From a virus, in IMG/VR virus record IMGVR_UViG_3300028581_000024, positions 28,063-92,062 of that record: a stretch of DNA of 64,000 bases. One strand, written 5' to 3'. This document shows, piece after piece, positions 29,244-53,302 of the stretch (positions within the stretch are counted from its first letter, which is position 1; the number at the start of each line of letters is the position of its first letter). Under the pieces are notes generated by a model. It saw nothing but the letters and a program-made list of their open reading frames with translations. It ran no database searches and had not been told where the DNA came from. A program made the translations under genes and the position numbers.

Positions 29244-29987
29244 TTAAGTATTATAGTCATCATAATCGATTTTTCTACAATTATACTTCTGCCACACGTG
29301 AGATAAGTCTTGTTTGTATGATTGTGGGTCAATGAAACCTGCATTAGCAAAGCCTTTAATACGCAAAGCGCTGCTTGCAGAATTAGCATCCGCTTCAGTT
29401 TCTCCTGAATAGCAAGTATATGTCTTACTAAATTTAACTTTTAACCTTACACCCTCTTTAATAATGTCAGCCTTGACCATCTTTATTAACGGTGCTTCTA
29501 TTTTAATTTGAACTTCACGATTTAGCGCAAGCACATCGTTAATCGTAGGCAAAAATTCTGGACTTGCATCCCAATAACCGGCCAAGCTGTCAACTCCCGT
29601 CGCGCCATGATATACTTTAACCGCACCCACCGCTTCAGCATAAGCAGCAGCAACACTCAAAAACATCATGTTACGGTTAGGCACATACGACTTGGGTTGC
29701 GCCTCACCAGCAACCTCTCTTATATCAGGCGTATCAATATCATTGTTTGTAAGGCTGCTTGTTGGAGCTATATCTCTTATAAACCGTACATCAATAGTCT
29801 TAAACGCACCGCATTTTTTTTCATTGGCATGGTATGCTGCTAATTCCAATTCACGTAAATGGCGTTGACCATAATTAAAGGCAATTGCAAATACATTCTC
29901 TGATCCCGCCTCTTCACATGCTTTGTATAACAAAACTGTGCTATCCATTCCACCACTTATTGGAATTACAATTTTATTTTGGCTCAT
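29244..29987 (-). CDS. queC: QueC-like 7-deazaguanine synthase lacking zinc cysteines
   Basis: A 247-residue protein. QueC uses ATP and ammonia to convert 7-carboxy-7-deazaguanine to the amide and then to preQ0. The PP-loop SGGMDST lies at about 11-17, with FNYGQRH and VPNRNMMFLS after it. In the C-terminal zinc site only Cys192 remains; the three following family cysteines, at +9, +12 and +15, are all alanine (201, 204, 207), while LR, GF, AG and DP around them are kept. This may halt the reaction at the amide or alter substrate. It is coupled to an amidotransferase and a nucleotidyltransferase gene. Confidence 0.88.
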   Translation of the reverse strand: MSQNKIVIPISGGMDSTVLLYKACEEAGSENVFAIAFNYGQRHLRELELAAYHANEKKCGAFKTIDVRFIRDIAPTSSLTNNDIDTPDIREVAGEAQPKSYVPNRNMMFLSVAAAYAEAVGAVKVYHGATGVDSLAGYWDASPEFLPTINDVLALNREVQIKIEAPLIKMVKADIIKEGVRLKVKFSKTYTCYSGETEADANSASSALRIKGFANAGFIDPQSYKQDLSHVWQKYNCRKIDYDDYNT

Positions 29988-42034: not shown

Positions 42035-42265
42035 ATGAAAACGTTTAAAGAATATGTTATGCAAGAGGATAATACTGCCGGTGCAGGCGGGGTCTTCGGC
42101 GACGCACCTAGCATGGGACATGGCGGAGCAGTAGGAAATTCTGATTTTTATGCACCAGATGATATGCGAACACCCAAATTCTTAGGAGCAACGTTAGTCG
42201 GCAAAAAAGGCAAAAAACGGCGTGTGCCTCTTGTACAACGAAGAAGCTTGTTTAAATACTTCTAA
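42035..42265 (+). CDS. Small late protein with capsid-targeting-like N-terminus
   Basis: A 76-residue protein opening MKTFKEYVMQEDNTAGAG, strikingly like the MKTYQEFI-type start of T4 internal proteins, with a possible cut after MQE. The middle is Gly-rich (GGVFGDAPSMGHGGAVGN), and the end is very basic (KKGKKRRVPLVQRRSLF), suitable for DNA binding inside the head. A stop/start overlap joins it to the next gene. Confidence 0.72.
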   Translation: MKTFKEYVMQEDNTAGAGGVFGDAPSMGHGGAVGNSDFYAPDDMRTPKFLGATLVGKKGKKRRVPLVQRRSLFKYF

Positions 42266-42678
42266 TGAATTTTGGCCACTGGGAATTAGCTCCAGGTGTT
42301 ACACCTCAAGAAGGAGCATTTGGGTTCATATATGAAATCTGTAATACAGTAACTAATAAAAAATATATTGGCAAAAAACAATGCATTTCAAAACTTAAAA
42401 GAAAACCTCTCAAGGGACGCAAAAATAAAAGAATAGAGTTAAGAGAATCTGATTGGAAGGTGTATACAGGCTCTTCAAATGAATTAAATGCAGATATAGA
42501 GAAATATGGAAAAGATAAATTCCGTTTTACTATATTACACTTTTGCGGATCTAAATGGGAATTAGGCTATAGAGAAATTAAAGAACAAATACATCGCGAT
42601 GTAATTCTTAGTCAAGAATATTATAATGGCATTCTTAATGTCCGAATTGGTACCCCGCCAAAAGATTTTAAAATTTAA
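42265..42678 (+). CDS. GIY-YIG-like endonuclease
   Basis: A 137-residue basic protein. GFIYEICNTVTNKKYIGKKQ resembles the GIY...YIG motif (F-I-Y and Y-I-G). DWKVYTGSSNELNADIEKYG and FRFTILHFCGSKWELGYREI follow, with a Glu as possible metal ligand in the final helix (VILSQEYYN). Such proteins include homing endonucleases and Seg proteins. It is coupled to a late gene rather than free-standing, so it may be virion-related instead of selfish. Confidence 0.55.
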   Translation: MNFGHWELAPGVTPQEGAFGFIYEICNTVTNKKYIGKKQCISKLKRKPLKGRKNKRIELRESDWKVYTGSSNELNADIEKYGKDKFRFTILHFCGSKWELGYREIKEQIHRDVILSQEYYNGILNVRIGTPPKDFKI

Positions 42679-43625: not shown

Positions 43626-43975
43626 GATTTAACGATCTAATTGCAGCAAAATTCGGTAATTTGCTCGAGCAAACACCTGTACAGCCTGAAATTAATGTAC
43701 CTGCGGCTGAAGCGCCTGTTGCTGCTCCACAAGCAGTCCCCGAGCCTCAAGTAGAGCCGCAGCAACAAAAACCTCTAACTCCTGAGGGTGAAGTCTTTTT
43801 AATTAATCTACTTAGGAAGGCACTATTCATGAACCCTGATGATATAGAGCTTAAGGTCCTAAAGGATTTACCCGATACTGATGAAAAAAATGCATCTGAT
43901 GTGCTTAACAAAATTATTAAGTTGATGCAGATGGATGCTGTTAATTTAGATGTAAATACACAGACCAATACATAA
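43622..43975 (+). CDS. Late protein with capsid-targeting-like N-terminus
   Basis: A 117-residue protein starting MRFNDLIAAKFGNLLEQTP, with an LLE site, then a Pro/Ala/Gln linker and a helical C-terminal domain (GEVFLINLLRKALFMNPDD..., ASDVLNKIIKLMQ). It is coupled by a four-base overlap to the upstream gene. Family unknown. Confidence 0.68.
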   Translation: MRFNDLIAAKFGNLLEQTPVQPEINVPAAEAPVAAPQAVPEPQVEPQQQKPLTPEGEVFLINLLRKALFMNPDDIELKVLKDLPDTDEKNASDVLNKIIKLMQMDAVNLDVNTQTNT

Positions 43976-43979
43976 TAAT

Positions 43980-44510
43980 ATGAATAGGGACAATCATTTA
44001 ATATTTGAAGCATTTATTAACAAACAAAGTGCCACAGGTGTGGACAAACCAGTAGATGCAAGAGATAATAATTCAGAAGATGCAGAACAACCAGTGGACG
44101 GTATTACCAAGCGCAGAGGTGAATTGGCTGGTAACATCATGGACATTGTGAGATACGGTATTCCAAGCAAAGAAGAGTTTATCAAGATCAGACAAGAACT
44201 GCATGACAAAACAAAAGAAATTTCAGACAGAGGCACCCCTGCAACAGAAGAAGAGAGACACCGGGGCAGGCAGTTGATAGGCATGATAAGATCCTACAGA
44301 GCCCAGCACCCCAATGATCCTGGTCCTTATGCAGAGAATGCAGAGAGTTCAGATGAAAGAAAAGAACGAGTGCAAAGGGGATGGGATATAAACAAAAAGA
44401 GATGGGCCAAATGGAAAATGCAGAATCCAGAAGCTGCTGCCAGGCATGCTGCAAAGAAAGCTGCTGGTAAAGAGGAGAATGCAGAAGAAGATAAACATAA
44501 AACGCTATAA
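43980..44510 (+). CDS. Late basic protein with capsid-targeting-like N-terminus, compositionally unusual
   Basis: A 176-residue charged protein beginning MNRDNHLIFEAFINKQ, with an IFE site. The body is rich in Arg, Lys and Glu (KERVQRGWDINKKRWAKWKM, then AARHAAKKAAGKEEN) and could bind DNA. By eye its codons are richer in G and C (CAG, GGC, CCC) than in neighbouring genes, suggesting recent acquisition. It follows the previous gene by 4 bases. Confidence 0.68.
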   Translation: MNRDNHLIFEAFINKQSATGVDKPVDARDNNSEDAEQPVDGITKRRGELAGNIMDIVRYGIPSKEEFIKIRQELHDKTKEISDRGTPATEEERHRGRQLIGMIRSYRAQHPNDPGPYAENAESSDERKERVQRGWDINKKRWAKWKMQNPEAAARHAAKKAAGKEENAEEDKHKTL

Positions 44511-44516
44511 AGCTTT

Positions 44517-44524
44517 AATAAATA
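44517..44524 (+). promoter_or_regulatory. Late promoter box (AATAAATA)
   Basis: Seven of eight bases match, four bases before the GTG at 44529. It would drive the three-gene cargo operon. Confidence 0.7.
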
Positions 44525-44528
44525 ATCT

Positions 44529-45773
44529 GTGTCGTATAAGAGTTTAAAAGAAGTATACTCCGAGAATGTTGTGGGTAAACCGGTCCCGCCATTACCTAGA
44601 CAAAGCGTACGCTTGTTTATAAAAGAAGAAGATGAGGCTATAAAAGTCTATAAACAGGAAGCAGATGATCCCGCTACGCTGGAAGGTGAAGTAGATAAAG
44701 AATATTATGATGATGTTATTTCTCCAGCAATAACAAGGGGTGGTAATTATCAATTAGCAAAAATAGTAAAAGAAAGACTAATGAATACTGGTTGTTACAC
44801 CAATAGAAACTACAATTTATTAGTAGACTTCTTACAAACACTTAATATTACATTAACAGAAGAAATCTTCAAAGAGTGTGAAAGACTTTTTTTAAGTAGA
44901 TTAAACCAACCATTTATTTCATTTATAACCGTATTAGCTGAAGCCTTAAATGCTAACGGTCAGAATATCACAGCACAAAGTATTGCTAGCTATCCCGAGA
45001 TTACTGAATTATATGATTTACTAGCAACAGATAAGGCGCCCAGAAAGGATCAGAGTAAAAATGCAGGTCCCGGGGAAGTTTTTATAGCTTTTTTTGCTAA
45101 TGGAAAAAAACTTTCCTCTAGAGATGAAGCTTCATCTAGCGAGGAAACCTCAAAGGGCGATATAATGATAGGCGGGGTTAAGTTAGAGCTTAAAGCCTTG
45201 GACGGTAGATTAGGAATAAAGGAGAGTGGAGTGTATTATAAGAGGCCGAAAGAATATTTTGTAACTGCTCCTGATACACTATTGAACAAGATAAAGTACT
45301 TAGCATTTGGAGATTACAAATATGCAGAAGATGCGTTTAAGCCTTTTGAGTCAGAAGTCAATAGCATTATAGGTGACAGGACTAGTTTGTCGTTTGAGGA
45401 AGGTAGAAATATAGCCGGTGCAATAATTTTAAAAATATATTGTAATAAAAATAGACTAAACTGGTTTCTTGTTGTAGATAAAAGAACATCCTATTTAAAT
45501 TGTGTTCCTGCACAAATAACAGATAATGAATCAATTTCAGAAATTTTAAATAAGATGAAAAATAGATTTTATGTATTGCCTGCTAATGGTGGTGCAAAGG
45601 TATTAATAGGTAAGAGCAAGTCATCTGATGGAATAGCAAAAGCCGCCAAACCAAAACAAGGAAAAATACCAGGAACGCCTGCTTCTTCTACAGTAGTGCC
45701 TGCCCCTATCCCTGCTGTAGCACAAGTTTCACAACCTCAACCTGTACAAGGGACGCCTGATGCTACCGTTTAA
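44529..45773 (+). CDS. Candidate packaged PD-(D/E)XK-like nuclease
   Basis: A 414-residue protein with a GTG start. The N-terminus MSYKSLKEVYSEN resembles the capsid-targeting group (YSE). A conserved-looking block, GPGEVFIAFFANGKK...KGDIMIGGVKLELKALDGRL, has Glu183, Asp211 and Glu220-x-Lys222, the spacing of a PD-(D/E)XK nuclease core. The flanking first 170 residues are helical. The C-terminus is a Pro/Ala tail. It overlaps the next enzyme gene by 14 bases. DNA cleavage is inferred from this motif only; a non-catalytic relative is possible. Confidence 0.55.
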   Translation: MSYKSLKEVYSENVVGKPVPPLPRQSVRLFIKEEDEAIKVYKQEADDPATLEGEVDKEYYDDVISPAITRGGNYQLAKIVKERLMNTGCYTNRNYNLLVDFLQTLNITLTEEIFKECERLFLSRLNQPFISFITVLAEALNANGQNITAQSIASYPEITELYDLLATDKAPRKDQSKNAGPGEVFIAFFANGKKLSSRDEASSSEETSKGDIMIGGVKLELKALDGRLGIKESGVYYKRPKEYFVTAPDTLLNKIKYLAFGDYKYAEDAFKPFESEVNSIIGDRTSLSFEEGRNIAGAIILKIYCNKNRLNWFLVVDKRTSYLNCVPAQITDNESISEILNKMKNRFYVLPANGGAKVLIGKSKSSDGIAKAAKPKQGKIPGTPASSTVVPAPIPAVAQVSQPQPVQGTPDATV

Positions 45774-46386
45774 ACAATTCTTAATTGAAGTAACTGGTAC
45801 ATCAATAGGTTTTTTCCCAGGAGCTTTTAAGCCACCACACAAAGGGCATTTTGATACTGCTAAACAAGCGGCTACTGATAACGACATAGCAGTTGTGTTG
45901 ATTTCAGGTTCAGATCGAGATGGTATTACAACAGCAGATTCATATGAGATTTGGAATATGTACAAAGAATATCTTCCAAAAAATGTTTATATACATACTA
46001 TTACTGGGTCTCCTGTGACTGCAATCTATCAGATTGTTGATATATTGAATAATGGTCAATTCTCACCAACGCCAAAAGTCACTAACCCATTGCCTGATGC
46101 TGATAAAATTGCAAAAATGTTACAAGGGTCACCTGCACCCTACACTATAAACCTATATGCAAGTCAAGAGGACTTAGTACGCTTTAATGCCTTTACCGGT
46201 CCTAATAAACAAATTTATGTAGGTAAAAATGTTTCCAAGATCGGTCACGGTAATATTTCTAGACTAGCTTCAGCTACACAGGCAAGAGAGGCCCTAAAAA
46301 ATAAGGAAGAAGCAAAATTCTTTACTTTCTTACCAGATATTGCAATTCAAGGTAAGCAAGAAATTTATAGAAAGCTAGTAAAATGA
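45760..46386 (+). CDS. Packaged-type HxGH nucleotidyltransferase
   Basis: A 208-residue protein of the nucleotidyltransferase superfamily that includes NMN adenylyltransferase and cytidylyltransferases. GFFPGAFKPPHKGHF carries HxGH at residues 27-30. Later, KIGHGNISRLASATQAREAL resembles the ISST-type loop. Before the domain comes MLPFKQFLIEVTG, a capsid-targeting-like peptide with LIE. Start and stop overlap both neighbours, so it is made with the nuclease-like and KxDG proteins. Confidence 0.75.
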   Translation: MLPFKQFLIEVTGTSIGFFPGAFKPPHKGHFDTAKQAATDNDIAVVLISGSDRDGITTADSYEIWNMYKEYLPKNVYIHTITGSPVTAIYQIVDILNNGQFSPTPKVTNPLPDADKIAKMLQGSPAPYTINLYASQEDLVRFNAFTGPNKQIYVGKNVSKIGHGNISRLASATQAREALKNKEEAKFFTFLPDIAIQGKQEIYRKLVK

Positions 46387-47738
46387 TTAGGTTTAAGACT
46401 TACATATTATCCGAAAACGAAATTCTTCTCGAAAAAGATACTTACTTTTCGCCACATCTTTCACACTTAGAAGATTTAGCTATAGAAGGTGGGAAAAATG
46501 GATTTAATAGTTTTCTTATACAAGCTACTAACATAATAAACAAATTAAAAGGATTTGAATCCGAGCAAGAGATTAACGCAAAAATTGATGGTGCCCCGTC
46601 AATTTTGTTTGGTGCCGATCCTCGTCCAGAAGCTAATAAACAATTTTTTGTAGCTTTAAAGTATGTAATAGATGAAAGTACTGATACACTTAAAGAAAAT
46701 GCCAAGCTGTTGCATAGTGAGCAAGAAATAGATCAAAACTTTAGTGGTAAGCAAGAGCTTGCAACTAAGCTGAAGAGCTTGCTTTTAAATCTTAAACCAG
46801 CTTATGATAATAGTGGTAAGATCTATCAAGCTGACGTTCTCTTTACATCGTCTGCAGATAAAAGCAGAGTTAGAATAGAGAATGAAGAATATATTGCGTT
46901 TAAACCAAATACAATTATGTATACTGTACCTATTGACGATAAATCGCCGTTGTTTGCTAGTATTAATAGCAGCAATGTTGGTATTATAGTTCATGACTCG
47001 TTCACGGGGGTTATCAGTGACAATGGTAAGAGTATTAAATTAAAACCAGCTGGAAAGAACATATCGTCACTAATTAGTAGCAGCCAGGGTACTAAAGCTT
47101 TTATAAGAGGTAGTAACTACGGTGAGGTGGCTTTTGATATGTCAGACAAGATGGTGCATGATATAGAAAAAACAATTGCTGCAGCCACCAAGCATGTTAA
47201 TAGCATTGATAATAAGTTTGATCAAGAATATGTTTCGTCTGCAAAAGGATCGATGGGCGGACAGATATTACCGCTGTTAAAAATTTATTTAAATAAACAG
47301 GTAGATTTAGAAGATAGTGGAATTTTTGGCGCCGCGAAGACGGGTGCCAAGTTTGATACAGCGCAGTTCTATGAGGGGTTTAAGGCATTCGTTAATGAGC
47401 GTATTAGTAAAGGTATTGAAGAATTAGGCGAGAAAGGCAGAGCAGCAAGAGAACAAAAAATTTCTAGTATAATGGACTTTCTTGATATGCATCGTAAGAG
47501 TTTTGAAAGTTTAATACACGCTACATACGAAATGGTTCGTGTAAAGTTTTTTATACTGCAAATACTTTCCCAGCTGGACACCAGATTAACATCCAATGCC
47601 TTCTATCAGCTACCTGATGGTTCTTATGCAAAAGCTAAAGATGAAGGGTATGTTTTATTTGTTGGTAATAATCAGGTTAAGATAGTAGATCGGGTAGACT
47701 TTACTAGAATGAACCGCCTAATGGGTGGCAGATTTTAA
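46383..47738 (+). CDS. Ligase-like nucleotidyltransferase with KxDG motif
   Basis: A 451-residue protein. INAKIDGAPSILFG contains Lys67-Ile-Asp-Gly70, the motif I pattern of covalent nucleotidyltransferases (DNA/RNA ligases, capping enzymes). FFVALKYVID and IYQADVLFT could be the following motifs (IIIa, IV), and EEYIAFKPN may be motif V. The N-terminus MIRFKTYILSENEILLE holds LSE and LLE sites of the capsid-targeting type. The C-terminal 200 residues are helical and unassigned. Ligase activity is inferred. Confidence 0.6.
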   Translation: MIRFKTYILSENEILLEKDTYFSPHLSHLEDLAIEGGKNGFNSFLIQATNIINKLKGFESEQEINAKIDGAPSILFGADPRPEANKQFFVALKYVIDESTDTLKENAKLLHSEQEIDQNFSGKQELATKLKSLLLNLKPAYDNSGKIYQADVLFTSSADKSRVRIENEEYIAFKPNTIMYTVPIDDKSPLFASINSSNVGIIVHDSFTGVISDNGKSIKLKPAGKNISSLISSSQGTKAFIRGSNYGEVAFDMSDKMVHDIEKTIAAATKHVNSIDNKFDQEYVSSAKGSMGGQILPLLKIYLNKQVDLEDSGIFGAAKTGAKFDTAQFYEGFKAFVNERISKGIEELGEKGRAAREQKISSIMDFLDMHRKSFESLIHATYEMVRVKFFILQILSQLDTRLTSNAFYQLPDGSYAKAKDEGYVLFVGNNQVKIVDRVDFTRMNRLMGGRF

Positions 47739-48318: not shown

Positions 48319-48735
48319 ATGCGTAGTTTTAAAGAATTTTTTTATGAACAAATACTGGGATCGACAGAAGGTATTACTATTCAACATGTTGGAAATGTAC
48401 GAGCTACTGTAGACACAGGCAATAGCGGGTATAACGTTCTACATGCAATAGTATTAAAAGATGCCAAGCCTGGTCATGTAAAGTTTAAAACTATTGGTGA
48501 TAAAGTATTAGAACTTCCCATCAAGGATAGCATCACAGTTTCAGGTAATAATAATGTTAACGATAGAGTTGTTGTTGAACTAGACTGCAGTATTGGTAAA
48601 GAGCAATTCAATAAAACTCCCTTCAGTCTTGCTGATAGAAGTAACCAAGATAATCCTGTTTTACTTTGTAAGGATTTTATTAAGCAAAATGGTGGCGTTG
48701 TTAACGTCAATATTAACAATAACCTTACCTCTTAA
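48319..48735 (+). CDS. Retropepsin-like aspartic protease with capsid-targeting-like N-terminus
   Basis: A 138-residue protein. VRATVDTGNSGYNVLHA carries the DTG active-site triad at residues 32-34. RVVVELDCSI, FSLADRSNQDNPVLLCKDFI matches the C-terminal half of the RimB-like family once called ATP-dependent zinc proteases. One domain per chain means it would act as a dimer. The N-terminus MRSFKEFFYEQILG resembles a capsid-targeting peptide (FYE), so packaging into the head is inferred. The stop (TTAA) is shared with folE. Confidence 0.72.
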   Translation: MRSFKEFFYEQILGSTEGITIQHVGNVRATVDTGNSGYNVLHAIVLKDAKPGHVKFKTIGDKVLELPIKDSITVSGNNNVNDRVVVELDCSIGKEQFNKTPFSLADRSNQDNPVLLCKDFIKQNGGVVNVNINNNLTS

Positions 48736-49385
48736 GTTCGATTAGATTGAGAGAACTCTACAAACTTATAAAACTCTGCTCGCGAATTATCATCATTATC
48801 TAGAAATGCACCAGACATTCTAGCAGTACGCATAGTTGAATCATGTCTAATGCCTCTGTTCGAACAACATGTATGAGCTGCCTCAATCATAACTGCAACA
48901 CCATTATTCTTTTCACAAACCTTATCAATATAGGCATGAATTTGCATTGTGAGGTTTTCTTGTACTTGTGGTCTGCGGGCAAACCAATCTACAATTCTAT
49001 TCAACTTGCTTAGTCCAATAACCTTACCACCCGTTGAAGGTATGTAAGCAACATGGGCATGACCGGTAAACGGTGCATGATGATGTGAACACAACGACGT
49101 TAGCTTAATATTATTCTGACATACCATACCATCATAATGGTCAACATTATCGAACGCAGTTACTTTGGGGGGATTACTATAACATCCCCAAGCAAAATCT
49201 TCAACAAACGCTTTCGCAACTCTATGCGGTGTATTAGAACTATTAGGATCATTTCTCCAATCGTATCCTAAAGCATCCATATAGGCTTCATAAGCTTTAG
49301 CAGCGTTTTCTATGATTTGCGCTGTCTCTTCTTTGGTATGTGGGTAGTTATGATTAGCAAAAGCAAACTTGTTCTTATTAGACAT
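48732..49385 (-). CDS. folE: GTP cyclohydrolase I
   Basis: A 217-residue enzyme converting GTP to dihydroneopterin triphosphate, the first step towards 7-deazaguanine (and folate). Zinc ligands are visible: LTSLCSHHHAPF (Cys, His) and HTCCSNRG (Cys), and GKVIGLSKLNRIVD and RPQVQENLT are family signatures. The frame is open to 49412, but the early promoter distance and SNKNKFAFANHN start indicate the ATG at 49385. It is an isolated early gene among late ones. Confidence 0.93.
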   Translation of the reverse strand: MSNKNKFAFANHNYPHTKEETAQIIENAAKAYEAYMDALGYDWRNDPNSSNTPHRVAKAFVEDFAWGCYSNPPKVTAFDNVDHYDGMVCQNNIKLTSLCSHHHAPFTGHAHVAYIPSTGGKVIGLSKLNRIVDWFARRPQVQENLTMQIHAYIDKVCEKNNGVAVMIEAAHTCCSNRGIRHDSTMRTARMSGAFLDNDDNSRAEFYKFVEFSQSNRT

Positions 49386-49392
49386 ATAAGTT

Positions 49393-49419
49393 ATTATAGT
49401 AATAAACTTCATTAATCAA
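49393..49419 (-). promoter_or_regulatory. Early promoter of folE
   Basis: TTGATT (49414-49419), a 15-base spacer, TATAAT (49393-49398), 7 bases, ATG at 49385. The distance from -35 to ATG is 28 bases as elsewhere. It abuts the late box of the divergent gene. Confidence 0.7.
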
Positions 49420-49431: not shown

Positions 49432-50754
49432 ATGCTTTTGAATAAACTTATTGAGAATACACTCAGAAACACTAAGCTCAAGAGAGTTAGAATAAAGGTA
49501 GATCCTTCCGAACTACCAGTTTTTGGATATGAGAATGTAGCTCACTTTGAGGGGTATGTATTGGAGGAATGCGGTACAACTGTAAGTGTATACATAGTAA
49601 ATGTCCCTCCAAATGTTAGCCCCATACAGCAAGTTGGTGCATCTCAAATAGAGCCTGTGGATGAGCCAACAATAAATCCATCCTTTCAGAACTTAAAGCG
49701 AAACCTCCTATCTGCACTTATAAAAGCCGGTCATGGTTCCGAAAGCCCTGTTTATAATCAAATTAAAGCAAGCAATAATCCAGAGTTTATTGAAACGTTC
49801 TTAAAGCAGGCAAGTATCGATCCTGAAGCACTTTTGAATGCCACATTTACAGAGGCAGCTACACTCTCTGCTTCAAATGCACAACCCACAGAAACACAAG
49901 GTGATGATTTAGATGAAATTTTTGGTCGTAAGCAAAGTAGGGCTAGAAGTATCCTTAAAAGTCTAGAAAATGGTGGCACTATATCCAAGGGCATAGGCAT
50001 GGTAGCTTCAGCAATTGACACTGCTTCTGAGCTGGCTCTAGGTAAGCGCAATATAGTTGCGCGTCTCTCCTCATTCTTAAAAACCTTAAACGTTCAAGAT
50101 CTTATAGATCTTAAGTCCTTGAAGCTACGTTCAAACGAATACTCACATATACCATATAAAGGTAATACTGTATACTTTACAGGTCTTCCTAAGTTGTCGT
50201 ACAATCAGGGACCTGTAAATTATCAGTTAAAAGGTAGTGTTGCTTCTGCTAATTATTCTGCAGAAGGTATCAAATATATTGTTTCAGACATTAACCCGAG
50301 CTATCCAAAGCTAGACAAAATAATGTTAGACTTTTCGGTGCTTGACAACCCACGTAAAACAGGTAAAGCTATCTTTATTATTGATGGGCAAAAGCGATAT
50401 AGTACCGCACAAATAACATTAACTGAGGATATCTGGTTTGTAAAAATACTCAAATATAATGTGGCAGATAAAACTCCGGAGAGTAGCAAAGGCTTAATAC
50501 ATGCTGTGCGTGCAAAGCGTCTCTTGAAGGATCTATTAGAAGGGTCATATCAAGAAGCTGAGAAGTTACCACAATTTAGTGATATTCTTATGGGATTTGC
50601 ACAAGATCTTAAGGGGTACGATAAATCAAAACTGGCTGATGTGATTGCTTTTTTCGAAGAATTGAAGAAAGAACCTGATTTTGCCGGAAAATCTGTTGCT
50701 GAAAAACTAAATAAATTGAAGGTTGTAATAAAAATAATAAAAGAGGAAATATAA
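49432..50754 (+). CDS. Large late protein with capsid-targeting-like N-terminus
   Basis: A 440-residue protein of unknown function beginning MLLNKLIENTLRNT, with an LIE site. Residues 15-65 form a beta-type domain (VRIKVDPSELPVFGYENVAH...). A disordered middle with Ala/Thr follows, then KQSRARSILKSLENGG and a second beta region (GNTVYFTGLPKLSYNQ). The C-terminal 100 residues are helical. It is coupled by one base to the next gene. Probably a packaged or virion protein. Confidence 0.7.
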   Translation: MLLNKLIENTLRNTKLKRVRIKVDPSELPVFGYENVAHFEGYVLEECGTTVSVYIVNVPPNVSPIQQVGASQIEPVDEPTINPSFQNLKRNLLSALIKAGHGSESPVYNQIKASNNPEFIETFLKQASIDPEALLNATFTEAATLSASNAQPTETQGDDLDEIFGRKQSRARSILKSLENGGTISKGIGMVASAIDTASELALGKRNIVARLSSFLKTLNVQDLIDLKSLKLRSNEYSHIPYKGNTVYFTGLPKLSYNQGPVNYQLKGSVASANYSAEGIKYIVSDINPSYPKLDKIMLDFSVLDNPRKTGKAIFIIDGQKRYSTAQITLTEDIWFVKILKYNVADKTPESSKGLIHAVRAKRLLKDLLEGSYQEAEKLPQFSDILMGFAQDLKGYDKSKLADVIAFFEELKKEPDFAGKSVAEKLNKLKVVIKIIKEEI

Positions 50755-51085: not shown

Positions 51086-51748
51086 ATGGAATATCAAAGT
51101 ACTAAAATTATTGAACTTGGGAGTTGTGCATTTCGTCAATGGAAGGCAGACAGTCACTGCAAGTTTATTCATGGCTACAGATTGGTTGCAAAGTTTTGGT
51201 TTGCATGTGACCGTCTGGATGATAGAAATTGGGTTGTGGATTTTGGTGGGCTCAAGGAGCTTAAGCAGGTTCTGGAGAAACAGTTCGACCATACATTTTG
51301 TGTATCGGCAGATGATCCTCAGCTTGAGTTATTCAAACAACTGGATATTGCAGGTGTTTGTGATTTGAGAGTCATGCAGCGGGGCGTGGGCATCGAGAGA
51401 ACAGCCGAATGGTGTTTTGATGTGGCCGATGGGCATGTGAGAGGCATTACAAGTAACAGATGCTGGGTGGAGAGAGTTGAGGTGTGGGAGCATGATAAGA
51501 ACTCTGCAATTGTTAGTTATGGTACCACACATATGAACACACCAGCTGCACCTAATGACAAACAGAAAGTTGTAGCTGAGCAGTATGAACTTAATTTTAC
51601 TTCTCAGACACAGCCTGTTGCTAATGTTGTAGCAGCACCATCACCTGAAATACAGAAAGCTGCAGATAAAGAACATGGTGCTGCTGTTGGCAATAAAGTA
51701 TCTTCTGGTTGGGGAAACCCATACAGCGGCACAAGCTGGGGTGCTTAA
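51086..51748 (+). CDS. queD: QueD-like 6-carboxytetrahydropterin synthase
   Basis: A 220-residue member of the 6-pyruvoyl-tetrahydropterin synthase family, second step of the 7-deazaguanine pathway. The catalytic Cys25 and His29 of C-x3-H are present (SHCKFIHGY). Two usual zinc histidines are replaced: AFRQW has Phe16 where AAHRL has His, and HGY has Tyr31 where HGH has His. NWVVDFGGLK and FDHTF are conserved. The last 60 residues form a low-complexity tail ending NPYSGTSWGA. DNA here looks richer in G than flanking genes. Confidence 0.82.
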   Translation: MEYQSTKIIELGSCAFRQWKADSHCKFIHGYRLVAKFWFACDRLDDRNWVVDFGGLKELKQVLEKQFDHTFCVSADDPQLELFKQLDIAGVCDLRVMQRGVGIERTAEWCFDVADGHVRGITSNRCWVERVEVWEHDKNSAIVSYGTTHMNTPAAPNDKQKVVAEQYELNFTSQTQPVANVVAAPSPEIQKAADKEHGAAVGNKVSSGWGNPYSGTSWGA

Positions 51749-52555: not shown

Positions 52556-53302
52556 ATGCAAGATTCTACAATATTCTTAAGTGATGATAAGATTTTTTAT
52601 ACAATTGAGGGTGAAGGCGAGTTTGCAGGCATTCCATCTGTTTTCATGCGGCTTTCAATGTGCAATTTGACATGTCAGGGATTTAAATCAGCCGATGCTC
52701 CCTATGGATGTGATAGTTTTGTGAGTTGGTCTGTTAAAAACAAATATACAGTTAATGAGATTCTTGATTATTTGAAGGAAAAGGGGTATGACAAACGGTT
52801 AACTGGTGGTGCAATATGGAAGCTCACAGGGGGTGAGCCTCTCATTCAACAGAACAAACTTTTGGATTTAGTGGAAGCTTTTGTGGAACGTCATGGTGTT
52901 ACCCCCATCATTGATTTTGAGACTAACGCAACAATTATGCCACGTGAAGAGTGGGTTAATAAGTACAAAGCCACCTTCACAACTTCACCCAAGCTTGCCA
53001 ATAATGGTGATGCAGCAGATAAGAGATATAAGCCTGAGGTGTTGAATTGGCATGCAAGAAACGGGTCTGGGTTCAAATTTGTCATCAGCAAGCAAGAGGA
53101 TTTGGATGAAGTGTTTTCTAACTACATAGATGCTCCTGACATCAGAGTGCCCCGCAATAGAGTGTGGTTGATGCCATGTTGTGGTAGCCGTGCTGAGTTA
53201 ACTGAAAAAGCAGCCATGGTTGCTGAATTATGCAAGGAGCATATGTTTAATTTTAGCCCTCGATTACAGCTTGTTATTTGGGATAAAGCTCTAAAGGTAT
53301 AG
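52556..53302 (+). CDS. queE: QueE-like 7-carboxy-7-deazaguanine synthase
   Basis: A 248-residue radical SAM enzyme that rearranges carboxytetrahydropterin to 7-carboxy-7-deazaguanine. GEGEFAGIPSVFMRL precedes the cluster cysteines, here Cys36, Cys40 and Cys52: the third is separated by 11 residues instead of the usual 2, a pattern with an insert known for some QueE. KLTGGEPLIQ and ETNATI are typical later motifs. It completes the pathway with folE, queD and queC, all under early-type promoters. Confidence 0.9.
   Translation: MQDSTIFLSDDKIFYTIEGEGEFAGIPSVFMRLSMCNLTCQGFKSADAPYGCDSFVSWSVKNKYTVNEILDYLKEKGYDKRLTGGAIWKLTGGEPLIQQNKLLDLVEAFVERHGVTPIIDFETNATIMPREEWVNKYKATFTTSPKLANNGDAADKRYKPEVLNWHARNGSGFKFVISKQEDLDEVFSNYIDAPDIRVPRNRVWLMPCCGSRAELTEKAAMVAELCKEHMFNFSPRLQLVIWDKALKV

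Follow-up and report, generated by a model that had tools for sequence, protein, structure and literature searches.

The internal proteins and Alt of bacteriophage T4 reach the phage head by means of a short leader at the N-terminus, which has an aromatic residue at positions 4 and 7, a hydrophobic one at position 8 and a glutamate at position 10. Residues 4 and 7 are needed for entry and residues 8 and 10 for processing, the protease gp21 cleaves after L/I-X-E, and the cargo differs between relatives (PMC9026906). We analysed a stretch of 64,000 nucleotides (hereafter the window), which covers positions 28063-92062 of a 92,062-base IMG/VR virus contig, and which carries an operon of three overlapping genes resembling such cargo: gene 1 encodes a nuclease-like protein, gene 2 an HxGH nucleotidyltransferase and gene 3 a ligase-like KxDG protein of the DUF6267 family. 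This trio has leaders of the T4 type, strictly so in genes 2 and 3 and loosely in gene 1, and a gp21-type protease in its phage, and differs from the T4 proteins in that three enzyme-like proteins are encoded by one overlapping operon, which combines a conserved KxDG-HxGH pair with a swapped nuclease-like core.

Three other described groups are close to the trio. The NMNAT-like proteins or cytidylyltransferases of cyanophage virions (S-SZBM1_140, S-CREM2 gp154 and S-SCSM1 ORF91) are, like gene 2, HxGH or TxGH nucleotidyltransferases; the leaders of S-SZBM1_140 and S-CREM2 gp154 are of the same kind as that of gene 2, and S-SZBM1_140 adjoins DUF6267. The cyanophage versions examined are, however, longer, with extra C-terminal sequence, many of them have TxGH, and their link to DUF6267 or to the nuclease slot is undescribed in the literature searched. 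Gene 3 resembles T4 RNA ligases 1 and 2 and the DNA-ligase superfamily of covalent nucleotidyltransferases in the succession of KxDG, a motif III-like QxD, EGxV and a putative motif V lysine, and differs from them in QxD for the motif III acid, an N-terminal HxxHxED, a helical insert of about 200 residues between motifs IIIa and IV and the lack of a sequence-level match. Polyvalent packaged effector proteins also consist of virion-delivered enzyme domains for early conflict, but these are giant multidomain proteins and not separate small leader-tagged products of an operon (PMC5512222).

Both capsid-targeted cargo and NMNAT-like proteins in virions have been described before. The trio, the proposed ligase-like nature of DUF6267, its recurrent HxGH partnership, a second KxDG family in its place and the exchange of the gene 1 core behind a constant tag appear to be new, and the last four were not found in the literature searched. 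DUF6267 was named by no paper in that literature, and on capsid targeting in cyanophages we found no paper beyond a T4 review.

Layout of the operon

The start of the contig, outside the window, encodes a major head protein of the gp23 type (phrog_138, E 3e-84) and a gp21-type head maturation protease (phrog_207, E 9e-58), and the window itself encodes T4-type DNA polymerase, helicase, SbcC-like and tail-sheath proteins; judged from its genes, the source phage is T4-like. The related contigs that bear the operon are from IMG/VR, and we take their sample numbers to be those of lake water. PADLOC matched no defence families.

The three genes lie on the + strand. Gene 1 (44529-45773 in the list of open reading frames (ORFs), GTG start) encodes 414 amino acids (aa) with a tag and an exchangeable PD-(D/E)xK-like core, gene 2 (45760-46386) encodes 208 aa of the NMNAT/cytidyltransferase superfamily, and gene 3 (46383-47738) encodes the 451 aa of the DUF6267 (PF19782) protein. 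Genes 1 and 2 overlap by 14 bases and genes 2 and 3 by ATGA, which supports the coexpression proposed in a first-pass annotation of the operon. That annotation had placed three overlapping genes at 44517-47738; the overlap was confirmed and the coordinates were nearly exact, but 44517 is no start codon and lies 12 bases before the start of gene 1. The motif residues that it named were correct (E183, D211 and E220-x-K222 in gene 1, H27-K-G-H30 in gene 2, K67-I-D-G70 in gene 3), and the trio was recovered in related loci. Its description of the genes as late was not borne out, since exact late-promoter-type sites (TATAAATA) precede some structural genes and none lies upstream of the operon.

DUF6267 and its HxGH partner

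Gene 3 is a clear member of DUF6267 (PF19782, 171.9 bits with a cut-off of 27, E 3.4e-50, residues 25-444), a family without assigned function, and was also assigned to PHROG 455. DUF6267 was found in at least 110 phage records, mainly of Synechococcus and Prochlorococcus phages and also of Pelagibacter and Methylophilales phages; given this spread and the virion NMNAT-like proteins already known, the trio cannot be taken as a feature of this phage only. An alignment of 83 diverse homologues showed that K67, D69, G70, G77, F89, K93, Q149, D151, N176, Y180, G200, H204, K388, E421, G422, V424, K433, R437 and F440 are invariant, with KxDG, the ligase motif I, kept in 83 of 83. The further ligase motifs can be read in order in gene 3, as a III-like QGDLL, a IIIa-like F.PNT..Y, EGxV for motif IV and K433 for motif V; in the family EGxV and the lysine never vary, motif III reads QxD, and of the two motif V lysines the second is absent.

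The AlphaFold2 (AF2) model of gene 3 reached a predicted local distance difference test score (pLDDT) of 90.4 and a predicted template modelling score (pTM) of 0.86. Comparison of this model with the PDB by Foldseek placed T4 RNA ligase 1 (Rnl1) first (E 0.043), and the top 50 matches also included DNA ligase IV, LigA, the Naegleria RNA ligase and capping enzymes. Among the viral models of BFVD the first matches were members of the DUF6267 family, one of them an S-PM2 protein that bears the annotation cytidyltransferase (E 8.5e-25); next came the Yasminevirus RNA ligase 2 (0.015) and a domain of a capping enzyme (0.05). DUF6267 is likely, though not proven, to be a nucleotidyltransferase of ligase-like kind that carries an additional helical insert: the motif pattern and the invariant K, D and G expected from the first-pass annotation were found, while the fold matches were weak. 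A bacterial origin of DUF6267 appears unlikely: of its 31 matches in genome collections most lie in metagenome bins and seem to be phage contigs that were binned along.

By its sequence gene 2 is a member of the HxGH nucleotidyltransferases, cytidylyltransferase-like, as had been proposed from its HKGH motif. It scored 28.5 bits with TIGR00125, above the cut-off of 27.7, and 20.7 bits with PF01467, just below the cut-off of 21. In 33 distinct HxGH relatives there is no variation at P20, G21, F23, K24, P25, P26, H27, G29 or H30 and hardly any at S171, T173 and R176 (SxTxxR). As an NMNAT proper gene 2 did not reach any cut-off, the best nicotinamide- or nicotinate-nucleotide adenylyltransferase equivalogs giving about 20 bits where 112-449 are needed.

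Of 80 loci picked solely for their DUF6267 gene, 48 encode an HxGH or TxGH protein within 3 kb of it, compared with 0 for shuffled ORFs; when at least 3 kb was available downstream, 35 of 55 loci had such a protein within 3 kb. The two proteins are also fused naturally, in the order DUF6267-HxGH in loci L027, L028, L066 and L210 (partially in L212) and in the reverse order in L062. Because their genes lie side by side in many T4-like phages and can be joined into one in either order, DUF6267 and the HxGH enzyme probably act together. The ligase-like reading gives this widespread family its first likely function.

We also examined 80 loci picked with the HxGH protein of the window, which are partly redundant and come from the same contigs. 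DUF6267 adjoined the HxGH gene in 29 of them and a second KxDG family in 6. This second family (A8) has about 405 aa with the pattern GGAAGHMAHPFD...KFDG...EGIV (EGIV or EGVV) and VK, and is encoded between the nuclease-like and HxGH genes, in the gene position of DUF6267 (L151:4790-6004, L153:4751-5986 and L171:4742-5977; also in L150, L161, L162 and L211). It shows a remote likeness to DUF6267, mainly in the N-terminal half (hhalign probability 64, E 6.5e-5); neither Pfam nor PHROG assigned it to a family, and searching the PDB with its profile yielded nothing relevant.

Most of the other 45 loci of this set had a different, longer HxGH type with no KxDG family close by. This type was seen in L124-L149, L152, L154-L160 and L163-L175, often as part of longer proteins (about 300-1150 aa). 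It is embedded in another conserved set of genes and has neither KxDG family as a neighbour, apart from L130 and L133, where a DUF6267 gene lies at a distance of about 3 kb. Some of these loci resemble Flavobacterium phage immuto (L012).

Exchange of the gene 1 core

Gene 1 begins with a tag of 33 residues (MSYKSLKEVYSENVVGKPVPPLPRQSVRLFIKE, positions 44529-44627, + strand) that is kept where the cores are unrelated. In close relatives residues 1-28 are conserved as M.YKSLK.LYSE.V.G..VPPLPRQ.V, and an I-K-E in the tag may be a cleavage site of the prohead protease. Behind this tag, close relatives have at least two unrelated types of core, type A (in the window, L097 and L110) and type B/C, and profile comparison of the two types detected no homology outside the tag.

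Comparison of the window with L098 showed a DNA identity of 85% up to position 43958, 81% in the tag region and 87.5% from 45796 onwards, with nothing in common at 44561-45795. At the protein level the core was 24% identical while the HxGH and DUF6267 proteins were both 92% identical. The reverse was seen between L099 and L107 (core 88%, HxGH 62%, DUF6267 61%), and L100 and L107 again differed mostly in the core (44%, compared with 87% and 95%). Several exchanges are needed to explain these incongruent identities. The alignments thus show that the gene 1 core has been exchanged between near-identical genomes behind a constant tag. Upstream neighbours in 54 more distant DUF6267 loci fell into 27 sequence clusters, compared with one for DUF6267, although some of these neighbours may not be nucleases.

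The type A core contains GPGE183...GD211...E220-L-K222...GRLG, and the pattern GPGE-GD-ExK-GRxG recurs at the same position in divergent proteins of L049, L133, L151 and L171, the last of which also shares the gene 1 tag; in the type A protein of L153, GH replaces GR (GHFG). The invariant residues of type B/C include G-x-G-x-GE38, D81, E91 and K93. Of 748 long ORFs, 77 had the combination G.GE...D...ExK, compared with 6 of 748 shuffled ones; most of the 77 are nuclease-slot proteins, with many redundant entries among them. This is the residue arrangement of PD-(D/E)xK enzymes. The E, D and ExK residues on which the first protein had been called nuclease-like are present, and by these motifs it is a candidate nuclease, although its AF2 model had a pLDDT of only 40. 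Profile searches of the PDB with the type A and the type B/C core gave no relevant match, and gene 1 had no match in 50,697 phage records.

Leaders and virion data

The N-termini of gene 2 (M-L-P-F-K-Q-F-L-I-E) and gene 3 (M-I-R-F-K-T-Y-I-L-S-E) fit the T4 leader, with an aromatic residue at positions 4 and 7, a hydrophobic residue at position 8 and E at position 10 or 11; both match it strictly, and gene 1 matches it loosely. The strict T4-type leader was found in 4 of 82 window genes, all located at 42-51 kb, while shuffled N-termini gave a mean of 0.15 and a maximum of 3. It is present in 38 of the 80 DUF6267 genes, where it ends just before (K)NTHxxHxED, and the leaderless members of the family begin at this same sequence (MAKNTHLEHLEDD). 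The DUF6267 proteins of Pelagibacter phage HTVC008M and Methylophilales phage Melnitz also have leader-like N-termini.

In cyanophage S-CREM2, the published virion proteome (table in PMC10665884) contained 4 of 4 proteins with the strict leader and 48 of 215 others (p 0.003), although this pattern was made strict after a looser version had given p 0.06. The four are the set of S-adenosylmethionine hydrolase gp6, APH-like kinase gp14 and gp136, and a cytidylyltransferase (L215-L218). These results suggest that the T4-type leader can predict in general which enzymes cyanophages pack, and it would be a simple predictor of the enzymes that T4-like environmental phages pack and deliver. HxGH relatives were detected in the virions of several cyanophages (PMC9146016, PMC10665884, PMC9602691); the authors of the cyanophage proteomes caution that virion enzymes of this kind might be carried over from the lysate. 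The leader and virion data agree with packaging of the HxGH protein, and packaging of genes 1 and 3 is a prediction. For the packaged trio of the first-pass annotation, the capsid-targeting-type N-termini were confirmed, in a phage that has a gp21 protease; published virion detection covers the HxGH relatives only, and the targets proposed there (host DNA, NAD, damaged RNA) are conjectural.

Proposed role and alternatives

The gene neighbourhood, the fusions, the invariant motifs, the core swapping and the leaders lead us to favour, tentatively and at a little under an even chance, the reading that the trio is head-packaged cargo in which a ligase-like/HxGH pair and a swappable nuclease process nucleic-acid ends at infection. 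The three proteins would be taken up by the prohead core, trimmed by gp21 after E and delivered into the host together with the DNA. DUF6267 would form a lysine-nucleotide intermediate at K67 and would act jointly with the HxGH nucleotidyltransferase on nucleic-acid ends early in infection. Gene 1 would be an exchangeable PD-(D/E)xK nuclease, its specificity renewed by swapping of the core behind the tag. Such swapping of the core while the tag stays constant suggests an arms race, and would be expected of a protein used as weapon or counter-weapon against the DNA of the host or of competitors. From this evidence we infer the packaging of genes 1 and 3, the nuclease activity, the lysine-nucleotide chemistry and the substrates.

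In addition to the tightening of the leader pattern, several observations weigh against this reading. The virions of S-SZBM1, in which 30 proteins were detected, hold one of three leader proteins, the cytidylyltransferase, and are uninformative, and the leaderless DUF6267 and slot proteins of this phage are not in the virion table. In DUF6267 the R that is usual in motif I is absent, QxD stands for motif III, the second K of motif V is missing, and about 200 residues of helical insert separate motifs IIIa and IV. The best Foldseek match in the PDB had an E of only 0.043 and a DUF6267 profile search of PDB sequences returned no ligase. The gene 1 model was built on 3 sequences, and gene 1 matched nothing in Pfam, PHROG, PDB or PADLOC. 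The roles given here to the trio are predictions from sequence and models.

That genes 1 and 3 at least, if not the whole trio, are ordinary intracellular DNA-processing genes, which serve replication and remain unpackaged, is an unlikely explanation but the strongest of the alternatives. Cyanophage copies adjoin uvsX, gp41 and mazG, about half of the DUF6267 members are without the strict leader, and the S-SZBM1 proteins missing from the virion table are as this explanation predicts. It does not account for the leaders of DUF6267 in the window and in many relatives, nor for a junction placed where the leaderless members start, nor for the HxGH partner in the virions of several cyanophages.

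It is also unlikely, to a similar degree, that the module is centred on nicotinamide adenine dinucleotide (NAD+). The HxGH protein would then be an NMNAT, making NAD+ from nicotinamide mononucleotide (NMN) and ATP, and the KxDG protein an adenylyltransferase or ligase that uses NAD+; the former would recycle the by-product NMN, and NAD+ would serve repair or counter a host defence that depletes it. The nearest hidden Markov model matches of the HxGH protein include the NMNAT and PPAT families, cyanophage virion proteins are annotated as NMNAT (PMC9602691, PMC10665884), and a close neighbourhood with fusions in both orders fits consecutive reactions. The HxGH proteins, however, reach no NMNAT equivalog cut-off, and the swapped third gene is unexplained. 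Recycling of NAD+ as such, in which a ligase frees NMN and the HxGH enzyme remakes NAD+, is an attractive conjecture.

An RNA-repair kit, in which a KxDG RNA ligase would mend tRNA or other RNAs that host defence nucleases have cleaved and the HxGH protein would prepare ends or cofactor, is improbable. T4 RNA ligase 1 and a viral RNA ligase 2 were the top structural matches and such kits are common in phages (PMC7824862), but no kinase, phosphatase or RlaP partner adjoins the trio, and a repair kit needs neither a nuclease-like first gene nor a hypervariable one. Non-catalytic head-core proteins with retained enzyme folds, for scaffolding or DNA ejection, are very improbable: the leaders are like those of structural core proteins and motifs III and V depart from ligases, but active-site residues are invariant across divergent families and the second KxDG family keeps them.

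The favoured reading, that of packaged cargo acting on nucleic-acid ends, can be extended to a modular cut-and-seal head weapon of lake and ocean T4-like phages, in which a self-fuelling KxDG ligase/HxGH pair is combined with a swappable nuclease. The HxGH enzyme would regenerate the cofactor of the ligase, the nuclease would be selected against the current host or competitor, and delivery would precede phage gene expression. This whole combination is a long shot.

Other genes of the window

Two neighbouring genes on the + strand have strict leaders. The gene at 48319-48735 (leader MRSFKEFFYE) encodes a retropepsin-like protein with DTGNSG (PF05618, 26.5 bits against a cut-off of 27), which is probably co-packaged and is a candidate packaged protease; a retropepsin-like neighbour of the trio is also present in L151, L153, L171 and L206. 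The product of the gene at 42035-42265 (leader MKTFKEYVMQE), a small protein of no family, is probably co-packaged as well.

The window also encodes GTP cyclohydrolase I (FolE, 48732-49412), a QueD-like protein (PTPS, 51086-51748), a QueE-like 4Fe-4S protein (Fer4_12, 52556-53302) and QueC (29340-29975). Together these correspond to a preQ0/7-deazaguanine route that could modify phage DNA; because these genes are present, the DNA may be protected by 7-deazaguanine, and a preQ0-derived modification could spare it from the phage's own nuclease. The phage may in this way carry a means of protecting its own DNA. No TGT-family transferase was found with PF01702.

The gene directly upstream of the trio (43980-44510, 176 aa) is absent in the syntenic L098 and different in L097, a pattern that marks it as a recent insertion. 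The gene at 42265-42678 encodes a SegE-type GIY-YIG protein (PF19835), for which the label 'NAD synthetase' of PHROG 447 is probably wrong, and the 440-aa protein encoded at 49432-50754 showed a weak match to GmrSD_N (E 9e-4), below the cut-off.

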